This document shows positions 26,805-36,245 of a DNA stretch of 36,245 nucleotides, one piece after another (positions within the stretch are counted from its first letter, which is position 1; the number at the start of each line of letters is the position of its first letter). Both the position numbers and the translations under genes were made by a program. This DNA is from Poseidonibacter ostreae (lineage in GTDB: Bacteria > Campylobacterota > Campylobacteria > Campylobacterales > Arcobacteraceae), in assembly GCF_009208075.1 (NCBI RefSeq), contig NZ_WFKJ01000032.1:1-36245 (forward strand), in the 5' to 3' direction. Below the pieces are notes generated by a model. The model ran no database searches and was not told the DNA's origin. It saw nothing but the letters and a program-made list of their open reading frames with translations.

Positions 26805-27295
26805 TTTTTAATATCCTTTGGTTTTGATATATAGTTTACAAAATAAATAGTATTATTTTTTTCACTTTTTTTCATCTGACCTAAATAAGAAAGTATTCCC
26901 TCACCTGCTTTTAAACCTTCTTCACTTTTTGCTGTTAATTGTGTTACTAAAATATAGTTATCAACACACATTTTTTTTGAACTTAGATATTTTAGATTAT
27001 AATCTAAAACTGACATTCTTTTATATATATCTTTTATTTTACTATCTAATTCCTCTTTTTTTATATATCTTGATTCAATTTCTTTCATTTTTTCTTTTTT
27101 ATTAACAATTTTTCTTTTTAAACTAAGAGTTTCTTGTTTTCTAATTTTAAGTTCATTTGTATATTGTTCTTTTTCATAAGATATCTTAAAAAAGTTTGCT
27201 AATTTAAAAAAGAAAAAACCAATAAAATAAGTAACAAATATTATTAAACCTACTTTTATAATTAGTTTAAATCTTTTATTATTAATACTAATCAT
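26801..27295 (-). CDS. PilO-like bitopic coiled-coil membrane protein
   Basis: This 164-residue protein has a short basic N-terminus, one membrane helix (about residues 11-32), and a Lys/Glu-rich coiled coil (about 38-100) outside. A small C-terminal domain of about 60 residues follows (VDNYILVTQLTAKSEEGL, then NNTIYFVNYIS). This architecture (helix, coiled coil, small alpha/beta domain) is that of PilO, MshJ or GspM proteins of type IV pilus and type II secretion inner-membrane platforms. It overlaps the preceding chimeric frame by eight bases and the RCC1 gene by four. Sequence identity to a named family was not recognised, so the call is architectural. Confidence 0.55.
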   Translation of the reverse strand: MISINNKRFKLIIKVGLIIFVTYFIGFFFFKLANFFKISYEKEQYTNELKIRKQETLSLKRKIVNKKEKMKEIESRYIKKEELDSKIKDIYKRMSVLDYNLKYLSSKKMCVDNYILVTQLTAKSEEGLKAGEGILSYLGQMKKSEKNNTIYFVNYISKPKDIKK

Positions 27296-28484
27296 TTTTT
27301 ACCTCATTTGATGTAATACACTCTGTAAACTCTTTATACTTTTTATTTGTTCTATTTAATAAAATTTTTTGTCTTTGAATCAATCTTTTTTCTATTTTTA
27401 TCTCTCTTTTTAATTTCTCTAAAGGCTGTTTATAAATATATTGCTGTGTTACAATATCTAGTCCAAAAAACATAACCCAAGCAATTAAAGCAACAAAAAA
27501 CAATACAAAAATATTTTTTCCAAAATGTGATTTAAAGTTATCTAATTCATTTAAAGACTTAACTAACTCTTTTAATTCCTTAATTAAGATTTTATTATTC
27601 CCTATATATTTTATTCCCTCATCTAAACTATTAAACTTATTTGGGTCTTGAAAGAAATCATAATAAAGCATCAAAAATGATTGTTTATTTTTTTCCATAA
27701 CTTCTTTTGTAAAATCGAAATTATTATCTATAAGTTCTAAAATAAATTCAAAATAACTATGAGATCTTGTTAATAGCCATTTTTTAGAAACTGCTCTTAT
27801 CAGCTCTTTTTCATTGACTTCATCAAAATCTTCTAGAATATCGGCTTCATAACACAATTTAGAAAAACTATCTTTTTTATATAAATTTTCTAAAGAAAGA
27901 TGATTTATCTTCGTAAAATTTCTAATTGTAAGTGGTAAAGTTGTCTGATTTTCATAATTTCTTATTTTTGATATTAATTTTCTTCTACCAAGTGTAGTTG
28001 CTTTTTTAATATTATTTAAAATATGTTCTTTAGCTTTTTTTTCTAAAACTATTGAACATCCTAAAGGTAAATGAGGAAATTCATTTTCTATTTCATCTTT
28101 TACACTATTAGAAGTTTTACCAATTAAGTTTCTAAATTTACCTTCAAAATCATATTCATCTCTAGCATTTCCAACAAAATCTAAAACAGTCAAGCACTCT
28201 TTGTTTTCAGTAAATCTAAGTCCTCTTCCTAACTGTTGTAAAAACACAGTTAAACTCTCAGTTGGACGTAAAAATAAGATAGTATCAATTTGGGGAATAT
28301 CAACACCTTCATTAAAGATATCAACTACAAATAAATAGTTTATTTCTTTTTTTAACAATCTTGATTTCACATCATCTCTATTAGAACTTCCACTTATAAG
28401 GAAATCTGCTTTTAAACCAACTTCCTTAAATTTCTCACTCATAAACTTAGCGTGTTCTTGTGATACACAAAAACAAATTGCCAA
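27288..28484 (-). CDS. Chimeric reading frame: helicase remnant joined to PilN-like membrane fragment
   Basis: The frame encodes 398 residues from a TTG at 28484 (it is open further upstream without a clear start). Residues 1-305 are a piece of a superfamily 2 helicase: motif V-like FVVDIFNEGVDIPQIDTILF and motif VI FLQQLGRGLR are intact. From about residue 305-320 the sequence changes character. It then has one membrane helix (about 324-343, IFVLFFVALIAWVMFFGLDI) and a basic coiled coil (about 352-385), like a PilN or GspL C-terminal fragment, and it overlaps the PilO-like gene by eight bases. No start codon is seen near the junction, so the membrane fragment has lost its own beginning and would only be made as a fusion or not at all. 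Confidence 0.75.
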   Translation of the reverse strand: MAICFCVSQEHAKFMSEKFKEVGLKADFLISGSSNRDDVKSRLLKKEINYLFVVDIFNEGVDIPQIDTILFLRPTESLTVFLQQLGRGLRFTENKECLTVLDFVGNARDEYDFEGKFRNLIGKTSNSVKDEIENEFPHLPLGCSIVLEKKAKEHILNNIKKATTLGRRKLISKIRNYENQTTLPLTIRNFTKINHLSLENLYKKDSFSKLCYEADILEDFDEVNEKELIRAVSKKWLLTRSHSYFEFILELIDNNFDFTKEVMEKNKQSFLMLYYDFFQDPNKFNSLDEGIKYIGNNKILIKELKELVKSLNELDNFKSHFGKNIFVLFFVALIAWVMFFGLDIVTQQYIYKQPLEKLKREIKIEKRLIQRQKILLNRTNKKYKEFTECITSNEVKND

Positions 28485-29587
28485 GACTTCATTAATATCT
28501 GTTAAATATTCTTCACATTTTGTGATAATCTCAGCAACTCTTTTTTCACTTGAAAAAACATCTGTTAATTCGTTTGTTTGATATTTGCCATTTTATATTT
28601 TGTAAATCAACACTATCACTAATTCCAAAATATTGAAAAGGACAAAGTAGTTTTCTATTTAATGCTTCAGGAAGTCTAATCTCAGAAGCAATTACGCCAC
28701 AAAAATCATCTAGAATATTTTCATTATCCATTAGAATTTCTTCTTGATAATGATGTGGTTTTATATCAAAGAAAGTTGAAAATTTATTTGTATCTTTTAT
28801 GGAACCACTTTTTAGTGCAATTTGAAGTTTTTGCTTTTTCTCTTATGTAAAAACTTCAAATTCTTTATCTTCCCAATATGTTTCAAAAGTTTTTTGAAAC
28901 TTTTTTATTATGTGTGAAATTTCTGAATTTGTTACTTTTAAATTCCATTCTAATCCACTGGTAAGTGCACTTCTTGAAATATTTGAAGAACCTATATATC
29001 CTGTATGAAAACCCGTATCTCTAAAAAACAAATAAGATTTTGCATGCAATCTTTCATTTGCTGTATTATATGAAACTTTGATTTCAGTATTTGGTAAACT
29101 TGCTAAAAATTCAACCGCTTTTAAATCAGTTGCTCCCATATAAGAAGTAGTGATAATTTTTAATTGTTTTCCTCTTTTTGTAAATTATCTTAACTCTTTT
29201 TCAAATATTCTAATTCCTGACCACTTAATAAAAGAGACCAAAAAATATATTTTATCTGAGGAAAGTATTTCTTCTTTTATTTCACTTTCTAAAGAAACAC
29301 CTGCATTACCTCCTGTAAAAAGTTCACTTTGAGTAAGCCCTGTATATGGTGTAATTTCTTTGATATAAGAATCAAAATCTTTTATATGGGAATCAAGTTT
29401 AGGTATAACCGCTTATTAAATTTAAAGAATAATTTATGAAGTTACTTATATATTGCGTTAAAAAAGTTGAAGCTTCTGATTTCTCAATGGCAGTAGTTTT
29501 ATAATAGATAGTTTCTAAATCTAAAGAATTTAGTTTGTTTGAAATCAAACTATTTATGAGTTGTTCGTATAATCCATTTTTAAACAT
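27558..29587 (-). pseudogene. Decayed PLD-domain / superfamily 2 helicase gene (DUF3427-type layout)
   Basis: Reading from 29587 downward, pieces of one protein can be chained. The N-terminus (MFKNGLYEQLINSLI) runs to a frameshift near 29402. A PLD-like domain follows ([11 protein letters not shown] then [12 protein letters not shown]), with an in-frame stop at 29185-29187 before it and another at 28843-28845 after it. Next come KPHHYQEEIL and then, without a break in frame near 28731, MDNENILDDFCGV. The latter normally lies after the ATPase motifs, so the Walker A and DEAD-box region is deleted. A frameshift near 28590 follows, and then the helicase C-lobe. The end is lost at the junction near 27558. 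The intact ancestor was probably a PLD-fused helicase of the kind found in accessory regions. It cannot work now. Confidence 0.88.
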
Positions 29588-29632
29588 TTAGAATCCAATT
29601 ATTTTTGTAAATTGAGTTTATCATATTTTTAA

Positions 29633-29771
29633 TTTAACATATATACTAAATTAAAAGTGGTTTCTCAAATATTTACAATCTACACCCTAATATTTAGTAT
29701 ATAAACTAAATTTAAAGTGAATATTTATTTTAAAAGCTATATAATTAATAATATTTAACTTATATACTAAA
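29633..29771. promoter_or_regulatory. Three evenly spaced operator palindromes upstream of hipB
   Basis: The motif TTTARY-N6-ACTAAA occurs three times: 29633-29650 (TTTAAC ATATAT ACTAAA), 29693-29710 (TTTAGT ATATAA ACTAAA, arms perfectly inverted) and 29754-29771 (TTTAAC TTATAT ACTAAA). Their starts are 60 and 61 bp apart, close to six helical turns, so they face the same side of the helix. The last is 26 bp before the hipB start. They are the likely HipB binding sites for autoregulation, by analogy with multi-operator hip promoters. Confidence 0.7.
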
Positions 29772-29797
29772 TAAGAACATATATTAAAGGTATTAAA

Positions 29798-30010
29798 ATG
29801 GAATCTACTTCTACTAAAATAGGTAAAACTATAAAAATAAGAAGAAAAGAATTAAATCTTGAATTAAAAGATTTACAAGATTATTCAGGTGTTAATTATG
29901 TTTCAATATCTGAAATTGAAAATGGAAAAGCTAATCCTACCGTTAAGACACTAGAGAAACTTTTAGATGTACTTGGAATGGAATTAGATATCAAAGTGAA
30001 GATTAAATAA
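29798..30010 (+). CDS. hipB: HipB-like XRE-family antitoxin/repressor
   Basis: This 70-residue protein is almost entirely one Cro/C1-type helix-turn-helix (IGKTIKIRRKELNLELKDLQ, YSGVNYVSISEIENGKANPT, LEKLLDVLG). It is the DNA-binding member of a HipBST-type toxin-antitoxin operon and should bind the three palindromes just upstream. Its stop TAA shares one base with the next start (TAATG), so it is translationally coupled. It lacks the long tail of classical HipB. Confidence 0.9.
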   Translation: MESTSTKIGKTIKIRRKELNLELKDLQDYSGVNYVSISEIENGKANPTVKTLEKLLDVLGMELDIKVKIK

Positions 30011-30336
30011 TGCAAAGAGCAAAAGTTTTTAGAAATACAATATTTACTGGTTTACTTACAAAGTTTGATGAAAATAGTTATAGCTTTGTTTATGACAAAG
30101 AGTATTTAACTAAAGATAATTCAAAAGCTATTAGTCTAACATTCCCTTTAAAAGAAGAAGAATTTACATCAAAAAGTTTGTTTCCTTTTTTTTATAATCT
30201 ATTAGCAGAAGGAAAATTAAAAGATATACAATGTAAAGAGCTTAGAATTGATAAAAATGATGATTTTTCAAGGTTATTATTAACAACCAAAGAGAACACA
30301 ATAGGTTCAATTACAATAGAAAAAGATGAGATATAA
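30010..30336 (+). CDS. hipS: HipS-like protein (stand-alone HipA N-terminal domain)
   Basis: This 108-residue protein corresponds to the N-terminal subdomain that is fused to the kinase in classical HipA: RAKVFRNTIFTGLLTK, FVYDKEYL, ISLTFPLKEEEF, FPFFYNLLAEGKL and the closing KNDDFSRLLLTTKENTIGSI. In the tripartite HipBST system this piece is a separate protein, HipS, which neutralises the kinase. It lies between HipB (one base overlap) and the kinase gene (two bases gap), in the same order as E. coli O127 HipBST. The split is not a frameshift artefact, since both proteins have proper ends and starts. Confidence 0.88.
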   Translation: MQRAKVFRNTIFTGLLTKFDENSYSFVYDKEYLTKDNSKAISLTFPLKEEEFTSKSLFPFFYNLLAEGKLKDIQCKELRIDKNDDFSRLLLTTKENTIGSITIEKDEI

Positions 30337-30338
30337 AA

Positions 30339-31337
30339 ATGGAAGATAAGATATGTTTAGGCTGTTTAGCAGAAAATAAAAAACTAAGAAATAACTATTG
30401 TTCAAAGTGTATTAAAGAACTATTTAATGGAAAGGTACCAAATCCTTTAAATTTTGACAGAATTGAATTTACTAAAAAAAGAGCAGAATTATCACCTAGA
30501 ATGTCAATCTCTGGAGTACAAGATAAAATCTCTTTAACTTTTGAAAAAAAAGATTTAGTCCCAACTGCAAGTAATGGAAAATATATTTTAAAACCTATTA
30601 CAAATGGAGATGGGCATATTCAAAATGAAAAAGATATTGTGGCAAATGAACATTTATCAATGATTATCTCAAAGAATATATTTAAAATTCCTACAGCTTT
30701 GTGTGGTTTGATTATGTTTAGTGATGGAGAGTTAGCTTATATAACAAAGAGATTTGATTATGATGAAGAAACAAACTTGAAATATGATCAAGAAGATTTT
30801 GCTGGAATTATGGGAATAACACCAGTAACTCATGGAGAAAATTATAAATATGATGCTTGTAGTTATTTAGATTGTGCAAAGATGATAAAAAAGTATGTTG
30901 CATCAAGTGTAATATCACAAGAAGACTTTTTTAAAAGAATTATTCTAAATTATCTAATATCTAATGGTGATGCACATATTAAAAACTTTTCTTTGTATAG
31001 TAAAGCAGATTCTAGAGAATACTTTTTAACACCAAGTTATGATTTATTAAACACAAGATTTCATATAAATGAAAAATATGGAGATATGGCAATAGATTTA
31101 TTAGATGATTATACGGATACTTATGAAGCTTATGGTTACTATACTTATGATGATTTTAAAACTTTTGCTAAGTTCATAGATTTACCAGAAATCAGATTTA
31201 ATAAAATTATGAAATTTATTGAAGACTCATATTTAGATGTAGAAGACTTGATTGATAAATCTTTTTTAAGTCCTAAAGCAAAAGAATTTTATAAAGAATC
31301 ATATAAAGATAGAATAAAAAGAGTAAGGAGCAAATAG
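30339..31337 (+). CDS. hipT: HipT-like Ser/Thr kinase toxin
   Basis: This 332-residue kinase has the HipA C-terminal fold. RMSISGVQDK (residues 54-63) is the regulatory Gly-rich loop, with Ser56 and Ser58 in the same spacing as the two autophosphorylated serines of E. coli HipT. ATP-binding Lys85 is in ILKP. NEHLS, TKRFD, the catalytic loop NGDAHIKNF (Asp211, Asn216) and metal-binding Asp235 in SYD are all present. At the N-terminus two CxxC pairs (Cys6/Cys9 and Cys21/Cys24) look like a zinc ribbon, an extra absent from E. coli HipT. HipT of E. coli phosphorylates tryptophanyl-tRNA synthetase; the target here is unknown. Confidence 0.9.
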   Translation: MEDKICLGCLAENKKLRNNYCSKCIKELFNGKVPNPLNFDRIEFTKKRAELSPRMSISGVQDKISLTFEKKDLVPTASNGKYILKPITNGDGHIQNEKDIVANEHLSMIISKNIFKIPTALCGLIMFSDGELAYITKRFDYDEETNLKYDQEDFAGIMGITPVTHGENYKYDACSYLDCAKMIKKYVASSVISQEDFFKRIILNYLISNGDAHIKNFSLYSKADSREYFLTPSYDLLNTRFHINEKYGDMAIDLLDDYTDTYEAYGYYTYDDFKTFAKFIDLPEIRFNKIMKFIEDSYLDVEDLIDKSFLSPKAKEFYKESYKDRIKRVRSK

Positions 31338-31450
31338 TCTAAGTTTACGATTGGTGTTGCACTTCTAAGTTAAAAGAGCGTCCTTTATATTTATCTTTCT
31401 AAATTTTATATTTAGTGTGATATAGGTATGAATTGATTTTTAAGAGACAT

Positions 31451-31497
31451 AAAAAAAGCCCGACCTAAACACTGCAAACAGTGATTAAATCGGGCTT
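31451..31497 (-). terminator. Rho-independent terminator of the interrupted tRNA
   Basis: On the - strand, AAGCCCGA pairs with TCGGGCTT (31456-31463 with 31490-31497), with an inner CACTG/CAGTG stem (31470-31474 with 31479-31483), followed by a T-run (31451-31457). It lies six bases beyond the CCA of the tRNA fragment, as a native tRNA terminator would. Confidence 0.85.
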
Positions 31498-31502
31498 CTA
31501 GG

Positions 31503-31545
31503 TGGTACGCCTGGAGGGATTCGAACCCCCAACCGCCGGGGCCGA
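31503..31545 (-). other. 3' fragment of a tRNA gene: attachment site at the left end of an integrated element
   Basis: On the - strand the sequence carries a full T arm (GGGGG-TTCGAAT-CCCTC), a 3' acceptor strand CAGGCGT, discriminator A and encoded CCA (31503-31505). Nothing to its right can form an acceptor 5' strand, D arm or anticodon arm; the DNA turns AT-rich after about 31545. Fragments of this kind mark the end of an element inserted into the 3' half of a tRNA gene. GC-rich bases before the T arm (CGGCCCCGGCGG) could be part of a long variable arm (Leu, Ser) or of the anticodon stem, so the amino acid cannot be assigned. Confidence 0.85.
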
Positions 31546-31678
31546 AACTCTTTTTATATCTTTATCTTATCTTTCTTAAAGTTATACAAATATCTCTACA
31601 TTTACCTTAAAATAGTACTTTCTTTAAACTTCTTATTACCTTAAGTACTCTACAATATTATTATCTTATATAAATTTA

Positions 31679-31698
31679 GGTTAGCAATAGGTTAGCAA
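31679..31698 (+). repeat. Tandem GGTTAGCAA repeats before the integrase
   Basis: GGTTAGCAA occurs at 31679-31687 and 31690-31698, 11 bp apart, between the attachment site and the integrase start. Such helically phased repeats are typical of integrase arm sites or of an autoregulatory site. A related GGTTAGC lies inverted near 34759. Confidence 0.45.
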
Positions 31699-31716
31699 AA
31701 TAAAGAGGTGTTTAAT

Positions 31717-32799
31717 ATGGCAAGAGTTAGAAGCAAAAAAAATGATGGTGTTTATATCAACAAACTACAAAATGGTGATATTAGTTATTCCATTACTTAT
31801 AAAGATGAACATAATAAATTAAAATGGTTCAATGTAGGAAAAAAAAGCGGTGGGATAACTGAAACCTATTGTAATGCAAAAAGAAATGAATTTATAAACA
31901 AAATCAATTTAGGTGAAGATCCTCAAGCCAAGAAAAAGAAAAAAAACATTATTACTTTTGATTCAATTGCTAAAAAGTATTTTGATAGTGTAGAAGGCAT
32001 AAATCGAGATAACAAAAATTCTATCGCAAGATATGAACTGCATATAAAACCTTTTATTGGACATAAAGACATTTCATTAATTGACTATACAGATATTGAA
32101 AAGATACAAAAAGCAAAACAAAAAACACACGCACCAAAAACAGTAAATCATTTAACTACACTTGCAGGAACAATTTTCAACTATGCAATCAAAAAAGAAA
32201 GAATGAGAATAATAAATCCAGCAAGTGAAATTGATAATCTAAAGGTCGATAATAAAAGAGAAAGGTTTTTAAACCTGGAAGAGATAAAAGCTTTACTTGA
32301 TGAAGTTGCAGAGAATGAAACATTAAATCTATTCACAAGATTATCTTTATCAACTGGTGGTAGAGCTTCAACAATTATGAACATAAAGAAAAAAGATGTA
32401 GATATTGAAAACCACACCATTAACTTATATGATTTTAAAAATGGTACTTCTTACAAAGGATTCATAACAGATGATCTATTTCCTATAATAGAAAACCTAT
32501 TACCTCATCTCAAAATTAATGATTATCTTATTACAACTTATGCAATGGATACCATACAACACAAAATGAAAGCCATACTTGATGATTTATTCAATATAGG
32601 GTTAAAATCCAATGATTCAAAGAATAGAGCAGTTACCCACACATTAAGACATACTTTTGCTTCACAACTTGCAATGAATGGAACTCCAATCTATACAATT
32701 CAAAAACTAATGAACCATAAAGATATAAATATGACTTTAAGATATGCAAAACTTGCTCCTGATAATGGAAAAAATGAAGTGAAAGGACTATATAAATGA
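31717..32799 (+). CDS. int: Tyrosine-type site-specific integrase
   Basis: This is a 360-residue phage-type integrase. A GTG at 31708 is also in frame, but AAGAGG at 31703-31708 is well spaced for the ATG at 31717. An arm-binding N-terminal domain (about 8-60, NKLQNGDISYSITYKD) is followed by a core-binding domain (about 78-165) and a catalytic domain. The catalytic residues are Arg216 (TGGRAS), His308 and Arg311 (HTLRH), His334 (MNHKDI) and Tyr343 (LRYAKL). It points away from the tRNA fragment about 170 bp to its left, the usual layout for elements inserted into a tRNA gene, and it should catalyse integration there. Confidence 0.95.
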   Translation: MARVRSKKNDGVYINKLQNGDISYSITYKDEHNKLKWFNVGKKSGGITETYCNAKRNEFINKINLGEDPQAKKKKKNIITFDSIAKKYFDSVEGINRDNKNSIARYELHIKPFIGHKDISLIDYTDIEKIQKAKQKTHAPKTVNHLTTLAGTIFNYAIKKERMRIINPASEIDNLKVDNKRERFLNLEEIKALLDEVAENETLNLFTRLSLSTGGRASTIMNIKKKDVDIENHTINLYDFKNGTSYKGFITDDLFPIIENLLPHLKINDYLITTYAMDTIQHKMKAILDDLFNIGLKSNDSKNRAVTHTLRHTFASQLAMNGTPIYTIQKLMNHKDINMTLRYAKLAPDNGKNEVKGLYK

Positions 32800-32827
32800 A
32801 TTACATTTTTTTAAGAGGAAAATCAAG

Positions 32828-33874
32828 ATGAAAAAGAAAATTACTACACCTGAAAAAATAAAGGCATATAAAGAGAAGATGGACGAACTCAGTAAAACTG
32901 ATTATGAATTAACAGATGAACAAATTAAATTAATTGTTGATTTTATTGAAGTGCTTAGAGCAAAAAATAACGGATTAATCTTTGAGGGTTTTTTTGATGA
33001 GAACGAAAAGGCAATACATAAATTTAATGCAATACTTACTTTTTGTTTGCAAAGTAGTATTAACATGCAAGGAACACTAGACATCTTAATAAATTGTGAT
33101 ATTGCTTTTATAAAATGCATAAGAAAGCTTTTTATTTCAAAGGATTTGATTAATCTTAAAGAAACTCACCTAGAAGAAATAACAATAGAATATGAACGCG
33201 ATCTAAGAAAAGAATTATTAATTAGAATTGAAGAGCTTTCAGAATATGGTAATAGAATTCAGCTAAATAAATACAGTAATTTATATCAAGAAATTTTAAA
33301 TAATAGCTATGAGGAAACGATAAAAAGAATTAACAACAAGATTAATGATATTCACTTACCTTTTAACCAATATAAGATTGATCAATCAGAAGTTATTCAA
33401 AATTTAGAACATGAAAAAAATACATTCAATGACTTGATAACCAACAATATGAAAAGAAGTAAATTAATAGGCAATAATCATTTTTTATCTCACTTAGTAA
33501 ATGATGATATTGAAATTACAGATGACTACAATATAGTATTTAAAGGACATACTGAAAGTTTAGTAATTGGTTATACTTCCAAAGCAATACTTTTATCAAT
33601 TGATAAGAATATCGTAATAAGAGAGTTAAAAACTAAAATAAAGATTTTGACTGATTTTAGACAAGAGGAAAGCGATATTTTAATAGAGTATAGTAAAACA
33701 TTGATTGAATTTGCACAAACAAAACGATATGCAAACTACATACCATTTAAGATTATTGCAAAAAGAATGAATTTAACAAAGAATGTTGCAAAAAATTATG
33801 CAAAAGCACTAATTCAAATTAATGAAAAATCCTTTAAAGATAGATTTGATGAATTGAATACTTTAGAATTCTAA
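32828..33874 (+). CDS. Uncharacterised element protein downstream of the integrase
   Basis: I do not recognise this 348-residue protein. It has no signal peptide or membrane helix, is rich in charged helices, and has a long coiled-coil-like stretch at about 115-215. The last 60 residues (YIPFKIIAKRMNLTKNVAKN, then YAKALIQINEKSFKDRF) could hold a helix-turn-helix. It starts 28 bp after the integrase with an AGAGGA ribosome site. A 146 bp AT-rich gap separates it from the next gene, so integrase and this gene may form one unit. Confidence 0.7.
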   Translation: MKKKITTPEKIKAYKEKMDELSKTDYELTDEQIKLIVDFIEVLRAKNNGLIFEGFFDENEKAIHKFNAILTFCLQSSINMQGTLDILINCDIAFIKCIRKLFISKDLINLKETHLEEITIEYERDLRKELLIRIEELSEYGNRIQLNKYSNLYQEILNNSYEETIKRINNKINDIHLPFNQYKIDQSEVIQNLEHEKNTFNDLITNNMKRSKLIGNNHFLSHLVNDDIEITDDYNIVFKGHTESLVIGYTSKAILLSIDKNIVIRELKTKIKILTDFRQEESDILIEYSKTLIEFAQTKRYANYIPFKIIAKRMNLTKNVAKNYAKALIQINEKSFKDRFDELNTLEF

Positions 33875-34020
33875 TAATCCTTATTACTACTACAAAGCAT
33901 AAATAATTAAAGCCACTTAGTACCCCTACAATACTTATGTAAATTTATTAAATATGCTTCTTCTCAACTCTTTCATAATTTTCTATACTTCCATATACAA
34001 ACCAAAACAAAGGCTAACTT

Positions 34021-34275
34021 ATGGAACTTAAATTTACAAACCCTCAAACAGAATTAGTTTATCAAGATTTAAAATCAAGATACAACAAAGCAACACTCAC
34101 AAAAAAAGAACTTGCTAATGAATTTACAGTATCAACATCAACAATTGATTTGTACATTTCAAAAGGTATTGGAATACCCAACTATAAAAAATTAGGTACA
34201 GCAAAAAATGCAAAAGTAGTGTTCAATATTATAGATGTAGCTGAATACTTATCACAAACAATCAAAACGGCTTAA
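34021..34275 (+). CDS. Small helix-turn-helix protein (AlpA/excisionase-like)
   Basis: This 84-residue protein has a predicted winged-helix or MerR-type HTH over residues 25-75. LTKKELANEFTVSTSTIDLY is the helix-turn-helix, and GIPNYKKLGTAKNAKVVFNI fits the wing with a beta hairpin, followed by VAEYLSQ. This is the usual shape of excisionase and AlpA-type phage regulators. It begins the right-hand gene group of the element and precedes the next gene by two bases. The role in excision or regulation is inferred from shape and position. Confidence 0.65.
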   Translation: MELKFTNPQTELVYQDLKSRYNKATLTKKELANEFTVSTSTIDLYISKGIGIPNYKKLGTAKNAKVVFNIIDVAEYLSQTIKTA

Positions 34276-34277
34276 CC

Positions 34278-34562
34278 ATGAAACTAGAAACTAGAATAAA
34301 AGCAATTGTAACGCATACAATAGAAGATTTTAATAATAGTGGGTCTCACTTCAAGGAGAGCAATAAAAAGATTATAAAGTGGCTTGCAAGTGATTTAATG
34401 AATTTAAAAGATATTGAAGAATTATCAACTATTGAAATATCTCTTCTTATACTTCAAAAACTGAACAGTTTAGATTTAGTAAATTTAGAAATGATTACAG
34501 AAACTATTACAAATAGCAAAAAATCCGATATTGTTCAAATTAGAAAAAAGGAGAGTAAATGA
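34278..34562 (+). CDS. Small unknown element protein
   Basis: These 94 residues are mostly helical, charged and cytoplasmic (LETRIKAIVTHTIEDFNNSG at the start, LEMITETITNSKKSDIV near the end). No family is recognised. It follows the HTH gene by two bases and is presumably co-transcribed with it. Confidence 0.6.
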   Translation: MKLETRIKAIVTHTIEDFNNSGSHFKESNKKIIKWLASDLMNLKDIEELSTIEISLLILQKLNSLDLVNLEMITETITNSKKSDIVQIRKKESK

Positions 34563-34805
34563 AAAAAACATAAAAACCCCATCAAAGTTATTTGATTAAA
34601 AAAGATGAGGTATATAATTAACGTAGTAAGTTATTATATCATATCTCAATATCAATATTTAAATCAAAAACTTAAATTCTAAAATTTGTTAAAAGATAGC
34701 TATAGAGCCTAAATAATAGTTATTTCACTATTACTCAAGAATATCTTGTTGCCTAAAAAATGGCTAACCAGTAATTAAAACAATAGAAAACTTAAAAGGT
34801 TTAGT
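34563..34805 (+). promoter_or_regulatory. Gene-free stretch with inverted repeats before the replication gene group
   Basis: This 243 bp has no convincing frame. Near its start ACCCCATC and GATGAGGT (one mismatch) flank a 20-base loop without a T-run. Further on, AATAGT/ACTATT (34715-34720 with 34727-34732) and CAAGA-ATA-TCTTG (34736-34748) are adjacent inverted repeats, and GGCTAACC lies just after. They could be operator sites controlling the following genes. This is a weak, pattern-only call. Confidence 0.35.
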
Positions 34806-34970
34806 ATGAATAAAGAAAAAAGAATCGAAATTCTAAGACTAAAAGCAAAACAGAGTGGAAAGCTTATGATTAGTTTCTTACTAGATGGAAAGAAAATGGA
34901 ACTAGAAAACCTTGAATTTGAAAAAAGGTTTGGAGAATTAAATGATTACAAAAGAGAAAAAGGGAGTTGA
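34806..34970 (+). CDS. Very small element protein (54 residues)
   Basis: The frame starts with an ATG six bases after AAAAGG, a good ribosome site, and encodes 54 charged residues (MNKEKRIEILRLKAKQSGKL at the start, ending YKREKGS). Its stop TGA (34968-34970) is two bases before the TTG start of the next gene, as in coupled genes. No function is recognised. Confidence 0.55.
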   Translation: MNKEKRIEILRLKAKQSGKLMISFLLDGKKMELENLEFEKRFGELNDYKREKGS

Positions 34971-34972
34971 TT

Positions 34973-35314
34973 TTGACTACAAATAAGAACAAAAGACTTA
35001 CAGACAGTAAATATATTGCTAAGAAAGAGTTTGAAGCTAATAAGCTGAAAGAATTAACGATAAAAGGCATAAGTCTAACTCATGCAGATAAATATAACTT
35101 CATAGTTGAAGGAAACAATTCTAGAGGTTACTTTGGAATATTAAAAGCTGCACTTAGAAGATTCTTTGTTTTGCTAAATGGAGAGATAAGTATAGCATTT
35201 GAGAACTTTGCAGATCTGTATGAAGATGTTAAGCCTAGTATGCCTTGCAACTTGATTGATATTGAAAATATAAAAAAAGAATTATTGAAAGGATTAAATA
35301 ATGAAAAAGCCTAA
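34973..35314 (+). CDS. Small unknown element protein
   Basis: This 113-residue protein of unknown family is basic at the start and helical. It starts at TTG 34973, six bases after AGGGAG (34961-34966). The other in-frame TTG at 34967 lies directly on that ribosome site and is less likely. The middle (NNSRGYFGILKAALRRFFVL) is hydrophobic-basic but too charged for a membrane helix. It overlaps the next gene by 14 bp. Confidence 0.6.
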   Translation: MTTNKNKRLTDSKYIAKKEFEANKLKELTIKGISLTHADKYNFIVEGNNSRGYFGILKAALRRFFVLLNGEISIAFENFADLYEDVKPSMPCNLIDIENIKKELLKGLNNEKA

Positions 35315-35615
35315 AGGAGTATCTCATTATCTGGTATTAAAAGATTTAATAAAAGGTGTTGATGTAAGAGCAAAAAGTGATTCTGTATTTTATCTTACAT
35401 CAAGGATAGAGAATGTTAAGTGTGAACTAAATAAGCAAGGGTTAGATTTTATTGAAGATGTAACAAAAGAAACAACATTTTCTCATTACAAGCCATATAT
35501 ATTAACTCCATCAAGTAGAAATATTAAAAAAGCAGAAGATTTGATACAGATATATGCAACAGATGATGTTTTGGATTTTTTAGAAGAAACAAAAAAGCTA
35601 AACAATGGCAAGTAA
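35301..35615 (+). CDS. Small unknown element protein
   Basis: These 104 residues overlap the preceding gene by 14 bp and the next by 11 bp, showing translational coupling in one gene group. The N-terminal part (GVSHYLVLKDLIKGVDVRAK, then SVFYLTSRIENVKCELNKQG) looks like a small helical DNA-associated domain of the phage helix-turn-helix type found before replication genes. That is only an impression; no family was recognised. Confidence 0.55.
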   Translation: MKKPKGVSHYLVLKDLIKGVDVRAKSDSVFYLTSRIENVKCELNKQGLDFIEDVTKETTFSHYKPYILTPSSRNIKKAEDLIQIYATDDVLDFLEETKKLNNGK

Positions 35616-36012
35616 TTTAAAAATTGGAAGTGAAGATAATGGTTATGCAATTCTTGATGAGTTTTTTAAGTCATTAATGTTCCAACAAGTAATGGATTCA
35701 GATTTAAGTAGAAATGAAAGAGATGTATTACTCGTCATCTTTAGAAAAACAATTCACTATGAAAAATGGAACGACAGAATCAGTATGTATTGGTTATCGA
35801 AAACTGTTGGAATAAGCCCTACTACTTTAAGAGTTACTCTTAAAAGGCTTGAGAATAAAAGCTTCATTGATGTAACAAGATCAACTGGTGGGAAAACAGT
35901 AAGTAGTAAGAAATACAATGAGTTTAGTATCCATACTTATCTTGTAAATATGGTTTTTAAAAAATGGGAAGAAATAAAGCTATATAATGGATTTGATATT
36001 CAATATGACTAG
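35605..36012 (+). CDS. Phage replication protein O-like N-terminal domain protein
   Basis: This 135-residue protein resembles the N-terminal DNA-binding domain of lambda O-type initiators. DNGYAILDEFFKSLMFQQVM, then DLSRNERDVLLVIFRKTIHY, DRISMYWLSKTVGISPTTLR and LKRLENKSFI follow the family order, with a winged helix at about 35-95. Lambda O binds the origin and recruits helicase to it. This protein ends soon after the domain, so a helicase-loading part is missing or encoded by a separate gene to the right. It marks the integrated element as phage or phage-like. Confidence 0.65.
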   Translation: MASNLKIGSEDNGYAILDEFFKSLMFQQVMDSDLSRNERDVLLVIFRKTIHYEKWNDRISMYWLSKTVGISPTTLRVTLKRLENKSFIDVTRSTGGKTVSSKKYNEFSIHTYLVNMVFKKWEEIKLYNGFDIQYD

Positions 36013-36245
36013 CTTATAAACTAATCATTGTATCAATGGATGATATTTAAGCTTCAAAGACTAGTAAATAAAGGGGTCTTTAATTAGTACCCTTTTGTTT
36101 TAAGACCCTTTGGATTGGTAGGCAACAAAGAATAAACTTCTACATAGTAATAATTCTTTTAAAAAGAAGAAACACACATAGGTGCTAAATTCCAAAAAGA
36201 GAATTTACACGATGTCTTTTAATCTTGTAGAAAACTAATATAAGA
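36013..36245 (+). promoter_or_regulatory. Gene-free right edge with two competing hairpins
   Basis: AAAGGGGT (36070-36077) can pair with ACCCTTTT (36089-36096), followed by TGTTTT, like a terminator. The same left arm can instead pair with AAGACCCTTT (36102-36111) as AAAGGGGTCTT with one bulged base. The two structures exclude one another. No coding frame is seen in this 233 bp, but the window ends here. Confidence 0.4.

Follow-up and report, generated by a model that had tools for sequence, protein, structure and literature searches.

A tRNA-Arg(UCG) 3' fragment beside a tyrosine integrase as a probable attachment-site copy among tandemly stacked islands

The presence of the 3' end of a tRNA gene next to an integrase raises the question of what has been inserted at this locus, and whether the DNA on the other side of the fragment is native chromosome. 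The window, i.e., the whole stretch of DNA that was analysed (36,245 bases), comprised all of contig C83 of a genome assembled in 156 contigs. The features around the fragment, and those of the element that starts there (element 1), were as follows:

31452..31497 (about), minus strand: terminator-like hairpin, duplicating that next to the intact tRNA (no mismatch to contig C135 in 46 positions, and folding)
31503..31548, minus strand: shared att core, a tRNA-Arg(UCG) 3' fragment running from the anticodon loop through CCA (46-nt identity to the C135 tRNA)
31541..31547, minus strand: anticodon loop, the probable region of strand exchange (end of the identity, and fragment ends in relatives)
31679..31699, plus strand: tandem 11-bp arm repeat of element 1, GGTTAGCA type, beside the integrase (same 21 bp on contig C115)
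31717..32799, plus strand: predicted tyrosine integrase of element 1, 360 aa from ATG (PF00589, 1.1e-23; PF22022, 1.4e-8; phrog_1 integrase, 2.9e-51)
32828..36245, plus strand: left part of element 1 as far as the contig reaches, with ORFs mostly without a family match
35605-36012, plus strand: phage replication protein O-like gene in element 1 (profile match)

Comparison with the intact gene on C135 showed that 31503-31548 holds a 46-nt 3' piece of tRNA-Arg(UCG) without the 5' half. The two sequences were identical over 46 nt counted from the CCA end, the first mismatch being tRNA position 31, and the identity ended at tRNA position 32, the 5' edge of the anticodon loop. ARAGORN found no tRNA in the window, and Rfam at gathering scores gave no match there. 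A permissive Rfam scan of 31300-31720 produced six weak matches, the tRNA family not among them, and one of the six was a 17-nt tmRNA match (7.7 bits) on the T arm of the fragment. The 3' piece without a 5' half that had been read from the bare sequence was thus confirmed, and the left boundary placed at about 31545 fell inside the anticodon loop. The fragment consisted of the last 46 nt of the gene, cut at a known subsite (the anticodon loop), as is expected of the end piece of a tDNA island.

The gene pointing away from the fragment was predicted to encode a tyrosine recombinase from its match to a family profile (PF00589, Phage_integrase). Its ATG at 31717 lay 169 bp from the fragment, in agreement with the distance of about 170 bp originally given, and an alternative GTG start was possible at 31708. 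The phage-profile matches of element 1 before the contig end were the integrase, the replication O-like gene and two weak ones of unknown function, with nothing else, and a megablast of 28000-36245 of the window gave no match among phage records. On the other side of the fragment, a 100-nt stretch of the minus strand containing the hairpin folded at -44.1 kcal/mol (z -4.47), with 0 of 200 shuffles as good, while a simple terminator scan of 31300-31800 returned 0 sites and did not call the hairpin. A native terminator had been predicted beside the fragment. The strong hairpin was present, and its native origin was not supported, because the terminator at the C135 tRNA is identical over 46 letters and the hairpin is therefore no mark of native chromosome.

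A genome search with the first 32 bp of the fragment (up to 3 mismatches allowed) returned three mismatch-free copies, one each on C83, C115 and C135. The C135 match was the only one with an intact tRNA (77 nt, tRNA-Arg, anticodon TCG), and this tRNA adjoined a UbiA-family gene with a close homologue in 10 of 10 genus genomes. The UbiA-family gene was next to this tRNA in most stretches read, with G001 having other genes between them. The intact tDNA and its cognate 3' fragment were thus present in one assembly on different contigs; on C83 the integrase adjoined the fragment and the contig stopped before any tRNA. The third core copy, on C115, was accompanied by a second integrase (40% identical to the element 1 integrase) and by HsdM, HsdS and HsdR genes (profile matches). 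The arm repeat at 31679-31699, upstream of the window integrase, was GGTTAGCAATAGGTTAGCAAA, and its 21 bp recurred in the same orientation at C115:491-511. The intact tRNA of the same sequence that was expected elsewhere in the genome was therefore located, with 46 identical nucleotides. The further expectation that it would close the same element is probably wrong: given the second fragment with a second integrase on C115, this tRNA most likely bounds a different element.

These results make it probable that islands have accumulated in tandem within one tRNA-Arg(UCG) gene and that the fragment is one of the attachment-site copies among them. Integration of an element into a tRNA gene, as first proposed, was supported by the core copies, the intact tRNA and the identity ending in the anticodon loop. 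Elements 1 and 2 each had their own fragment and integrase, as members of a tandem array do, with the contigs presumably adjacent. The order would be chromosomal gene cluster, eroded island 0, core (window), element 1, core (C115), element 2, rebuilt tRNA (C135) and ubiA-like gene. Island 0 would consist of hip genes and a broken restriction gene, and element 2 would have HsdMSR at one end and a Fic gene at the other. Each island would bring the tRNA 3' part from the anticodon loop on, often together with a terminator. The integrase would recombine the attP core with the tRNA anticodon loop, strand exchange probably taking place in the loop, and the incoming copy would rebuild the tRNA while the old 3' part shifted to the far side. 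Both ends of an island would bear the same tandem 11-bp word, just upstream of the integrase at one end and about 91 bp outside the next core at the other, and the N-terminal domain of the integrase would presumably read this word.

The DNA to the left of the fragment contained the following features, which were assigned to a putative older island (element 0):

27561..27571, no strand: junction of element 0 with the chromosomal gene cluster (11-bp overlap of two alignments)
27561..29587, minus strand: broken PLD-helicase gene, type IV restriction-like, assigned to element 0
29798..31337, plus strand: hip module, placed in element 0 (protein with a HipA N-terminal domain, 30010-30336; HipA_C protein, 30339-31337)
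within 29798..31337, plus strand: 70-aa ORF of the hip module, which we take to be HTH-like
31413..31435, plus strand: GTGTGATATAGGTATGAA, a decayed arm repeat taken to mark the far end of element 0 (flank comparison; self-repeat 6/11)

In the hip module the N-terminal and C-terminal parts of HipA are separate proteins, and the small, presumably HTH-like ORF makes a third gene, an arrangement that is in our view reminiscent of HipBST. GTGTGATATAGGTATGAA stood left of the window terminator, about 90 bp from the core; at the same place G004 had GTGTGAAATAGGTGTGAA and G003 a more decayed form, both beside hip genes as well. The 52-bp left flank of the window scored 35 against G004, 31 against the far end of an island in G041, 23 against the C135 flank and 22 against G003, and each of these scores beat all 300 letter shuffles (best shuffle 14 for G004, 14.5 for G041 and 12.5 for G003). 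Scores against the native flank of G041 (8), the empty site of G009 (8) and the left flank of C115 (8.5) were within the shuffle range, the low-scoring C115 flank being itself read as a far end. The G041 island, from another genus, measured 11.5 kb, occupied the same tRNA and carried a GTGTGAA word at both ends, with none on the native side. Synteny in relatives was conserved on both sides.

The original prediction had placed the hip module outside the element of the integrase and on plain chromosome. The first part was upheld and the second was not supported: the module lies outside element 1 and probably belongs to an older, eroded island, since the left flank resembles the far island end of another genus and not a native or empty site. 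A search for an integrase or an outer tRNA fragment of element 0 found neither, and element 0 was not counted as a third full member of the array. The PLD-helicase gene broken in the window was one 1042-aa frame in G003 and G004. The N-terminal part of the ORF at 27288-28442 was 97% identical (297 aa) to the helicase-type gene of G004, and its C-terminal part matched a gene of the chromosomal cluster at 69-71%. By these alignments the ORF is a predicted deletion fusion of the broken restriction gene with the chromosomal cluster gene, with an 11-bp overlap, and the deletion at 27561-27571 could have removed an outer end of element 0.

It is unlikely, though compatible with the array, that the hip region is ordinary variable chromosome, with the GTGTGA word a chance resemblance and elements 1 and 2 the only islands. 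The region has no bounding integrase or second fragment, and its word is weak as a self-repeat, at 6/11, where the island-free sites of G009 and G002 reach 8. No hip match was obtained in the G041 island. In G003 the fragment is followed by the hip and restriction genes and then by a chromosomal gene that adjoins the tRNA in G009 (presumably a diguanylate cyclase gene); a search allowing up to 6 mismatches in 22 gave no tRNA relic separating the hip and restriction genes from this chromosomal gene. However, the flank resembles the far end of G041 (31, against 14.5 for the best shuffle) rather than native flanks, the distance from word to core is that of other far ends, and the G041 integrase that has this word adjoins a fragment of this very tRNA. 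G004 (L017, L018, L067) had two hip gene copies, one between the tRNA and the fragment and one outside, with HipA_C proteins 93% identical over 297 aa.

A single island in the tRNA, with native chromosome and a native terminator on its left, would account for the fragment, the integrase and the intact tRNA, all of which are present, and the hip module does lie on the gene-cluster side of the fragment in the window genome (G000), G003 and G004. Against it, a third core with a second integrase exists, and the left flank resembles a far island end rather than native or empty sites. G009, in which the tRNA stands island-free beside conserved genes, has no hip genes between the gene cluster and the tRNA, and neither hip genes nor a second core occurred in the 19.5 kb of it that were examined. 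Given the C115 core and the flank comparison, the single island with a native flank was set aside as improbable.

The arm words provided a means of joining the contigs. Over 21 bp, the C83 word was the same as the one to the left of the core on C115. The integrase-side word of C115 and the one to the left of the C135 tRNA showed 2 differences in 23 positions, both close to an edge. The words therefore pair C83 with C115 and C115 with C135, from which we infer the order C83 - element 1 - C115 - element 2 - C135. The order remains inferential because the two contig ends searched, the right end of C83 and the left end of C115, gave no match elsewhere in the genome. A comparable layout was found on one contig in G035, where a two-island array had three cores and matching words, with no word on the native side. 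The G035 islands sit in the 3' end of a protein gene, which we take to be desulfoferrodoxin-like. That the three contigs represent separate loci or a mixed assembly, C115 coming from a plasmid, another site or another strain, would agree with the 156 contigs, a contamination estimate of 1.52, the unmatched ends and the mixed look of another genome of the set (G008), but is very doubtful given that the core matches include only one intact tRNA, that the left word of C115 fits element 1 and its right word fits C135 as an array predicts, and that G035 has such a layout on one contig. In G008 (L023, L066), two contigs carried two versions of the same conserved gene region and the bin looked mixed; a reading of G008 as a tRNA allele swapped by integration was dropped for the same two versions.

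The frequency of such words was determined among relatives of the integrase. Of 37 related integrases, 28 had a tandem repeat of at least 9/11 at a distance of 16-94 bp upstream, compared with 2.0% of 740 letter shuffles. The 37 were distinct relatives from the loci examined at that point, a subset of all matches, and repeated integrases had been dropped by identical middle segments. In the stretches read for partner words, no upstream repeat at 9/11 was found for either G096 integrase, the first of G077, the second of G031, the second of G091 and that of G003, whose arm-word pair was weak. The exact arm pattern gave 38 hits in 104 family genomes compared with 58 for the reversed control, and because the bare pattern is rarer than this control, only position and pairing carry weight. 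Eleven of the 38 hits lay beside an integrase (nine among 30 loci examined, two by coordinates: G035:871783 and G004:2240857). A second copy of the same or nearly the same word was present for 7 of the 11, in G000, G004, G019, G020, G069 and twice in G035; G019 and G020 look like close copies of each other. The second copy was lacking in the other four: G015, G039 and G067, with about 20 kb searched, and G096, with no second exact hit in the genome.

In a wider set of 11 integrases with an upstream repeat, a clear partner word was found in four. For the G004 island in this tRNA the partner was borderline, its 5 mismatches being matched by the best among 100 shuffled words, and the remaining six (G015, G031, G039, G067, the second integrase of G077, and G091) had no partner word in stretches of which many may end before the far end. 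Arm-word pairing of island ends was thus frequent, with its generality not established.

Word similarity tracked residues 1-75 of the integrase when the catalytic domain was partialled out (0.41, 0 of 500 permutations, 28 integrases with a repeat), and the correlation was 0.34 (2 of 1000 permutations) among the 23 integrases left after removal of those more than 85% identical. The catalytic domain showed no tracking (-0.09). The correlation was strongest in residues 1-34 and exceeded that of the neighbouring upstream DNA (0.15). A nearest-neighbour test gave 8.87, 8.61 and 8.74, with no separation between the integrase domains, and physical linkage of the word and the N-terminus could contribute to the correlation. 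That the N-terminal domain binds the word is suggested by this tracking of residues 1-75 and by what is described for other integrases (PMC2951348).

Fragments of tRNA-Arg adjoined 10 of the 37 integrases, in 5 genera, with 0-7 mismatches in 45 (shuffles at least 20), and ended within a few bases of the same place. Other relatives adjoined a tmRNA (G019, G020) or a protein gene (G035). Integrases with the common tRNA-Arg target bore different words, and the GGTTGGAA word occurred with the tRNA-Arg target in C115 and G078 and with another target in G015. The G015 target was tRNA-like by eye, with 21 of 45 mismatches to the tRNA-Arg core. We tentatively suggest that the arm words may act as interchangeable addresses, in which islands would share a core and each integrase would read its own word through its N-terminal domain. 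Stacked islands would then be individually excisable, with no recombination through the identical cores, and the address would be inherited separately from the choice of target (one tRNA with many words, one word with different targets).

Several parts of this arrangement are already known, namely tandem tRNA islands, composite islands with hip genes, and Arcobacter islands that end in integrases. The tDNA islands of Islander are described as having a tyrosine integrase, with ends marked by the intact tRNA and a displaced 3' fragment; their subsites include an anticodon-centred crossover, and islands in tandem count as an array if every one of them possesses a fragment and an integrase of its own, with 125 arrays of two or more and 4 of three or more (PMC4383910). 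The present locus is like these in anatomy, anticodon subsite and tandem arrays; unlike them as there described, its members can be matched up through their arm words, and one of them, a likely third, is eroded and lacks an integrase (PMC4383910). In the KplE1 prophage, whose integrase IntS acts at argW, the N-terminal domain of the integrase binds arm-type sites that overlap the integrase promoter beside the 3' end of tRNA-Arg, and autoregulation has been proposed for most tRNA-associated integrases (PMC2951348). The likeness lies in the arm words beside an integrase and a tRNA-Arg, which here are read from sequence.

A composite island of Shewanella, stabilised by HipAB, is described as one island inside another (PMC8978831). 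Common to both cases are several islands at one tRNA locus and a hip toxin-antitoxin module in one of them; in contrast, the islands of the window genome appear to be side by side, not nested, and hip is recognised here by its genes. The islands ABGI1-3 of Arcobacter butzleri have terminal integrases and direct repeats, with ABGI1 in the 3' end of tRNA-Leu and ABGI2 encoding HsdS and HsdM; they are described as separate islands, and the passages of that account considered here give no tRNA-Arg array (PMC2147049). Arm-word pairing of stacked islands was not met in a limited literature search of titles and abstract openings, and may be published already.

With the DNA left of element 1 probably an older island, the hip genes would be part of a cargo history and not of the core chromosome. 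Arm words may help to match up the ends of islands in fragmented assemblies, in which the rule of a tRNA plus a fragment cannot assign fragments. Should the words be true addresses, islands stacked with a single shared core would offer a direct test of how integrases avoid recombination between wrong pairs.

Two further observations were made in relatives. In G003 and G001 (L064, L065), the T-arm of tRNA-Arg(UCG) differed from most others read in the genus and is possibly island-borne. In G006 (L022 16008-16080), an eroded terminator and tRNA fragment stood between hip and Fic genes in a stretch without an integrase, which looks like a collapsed array.
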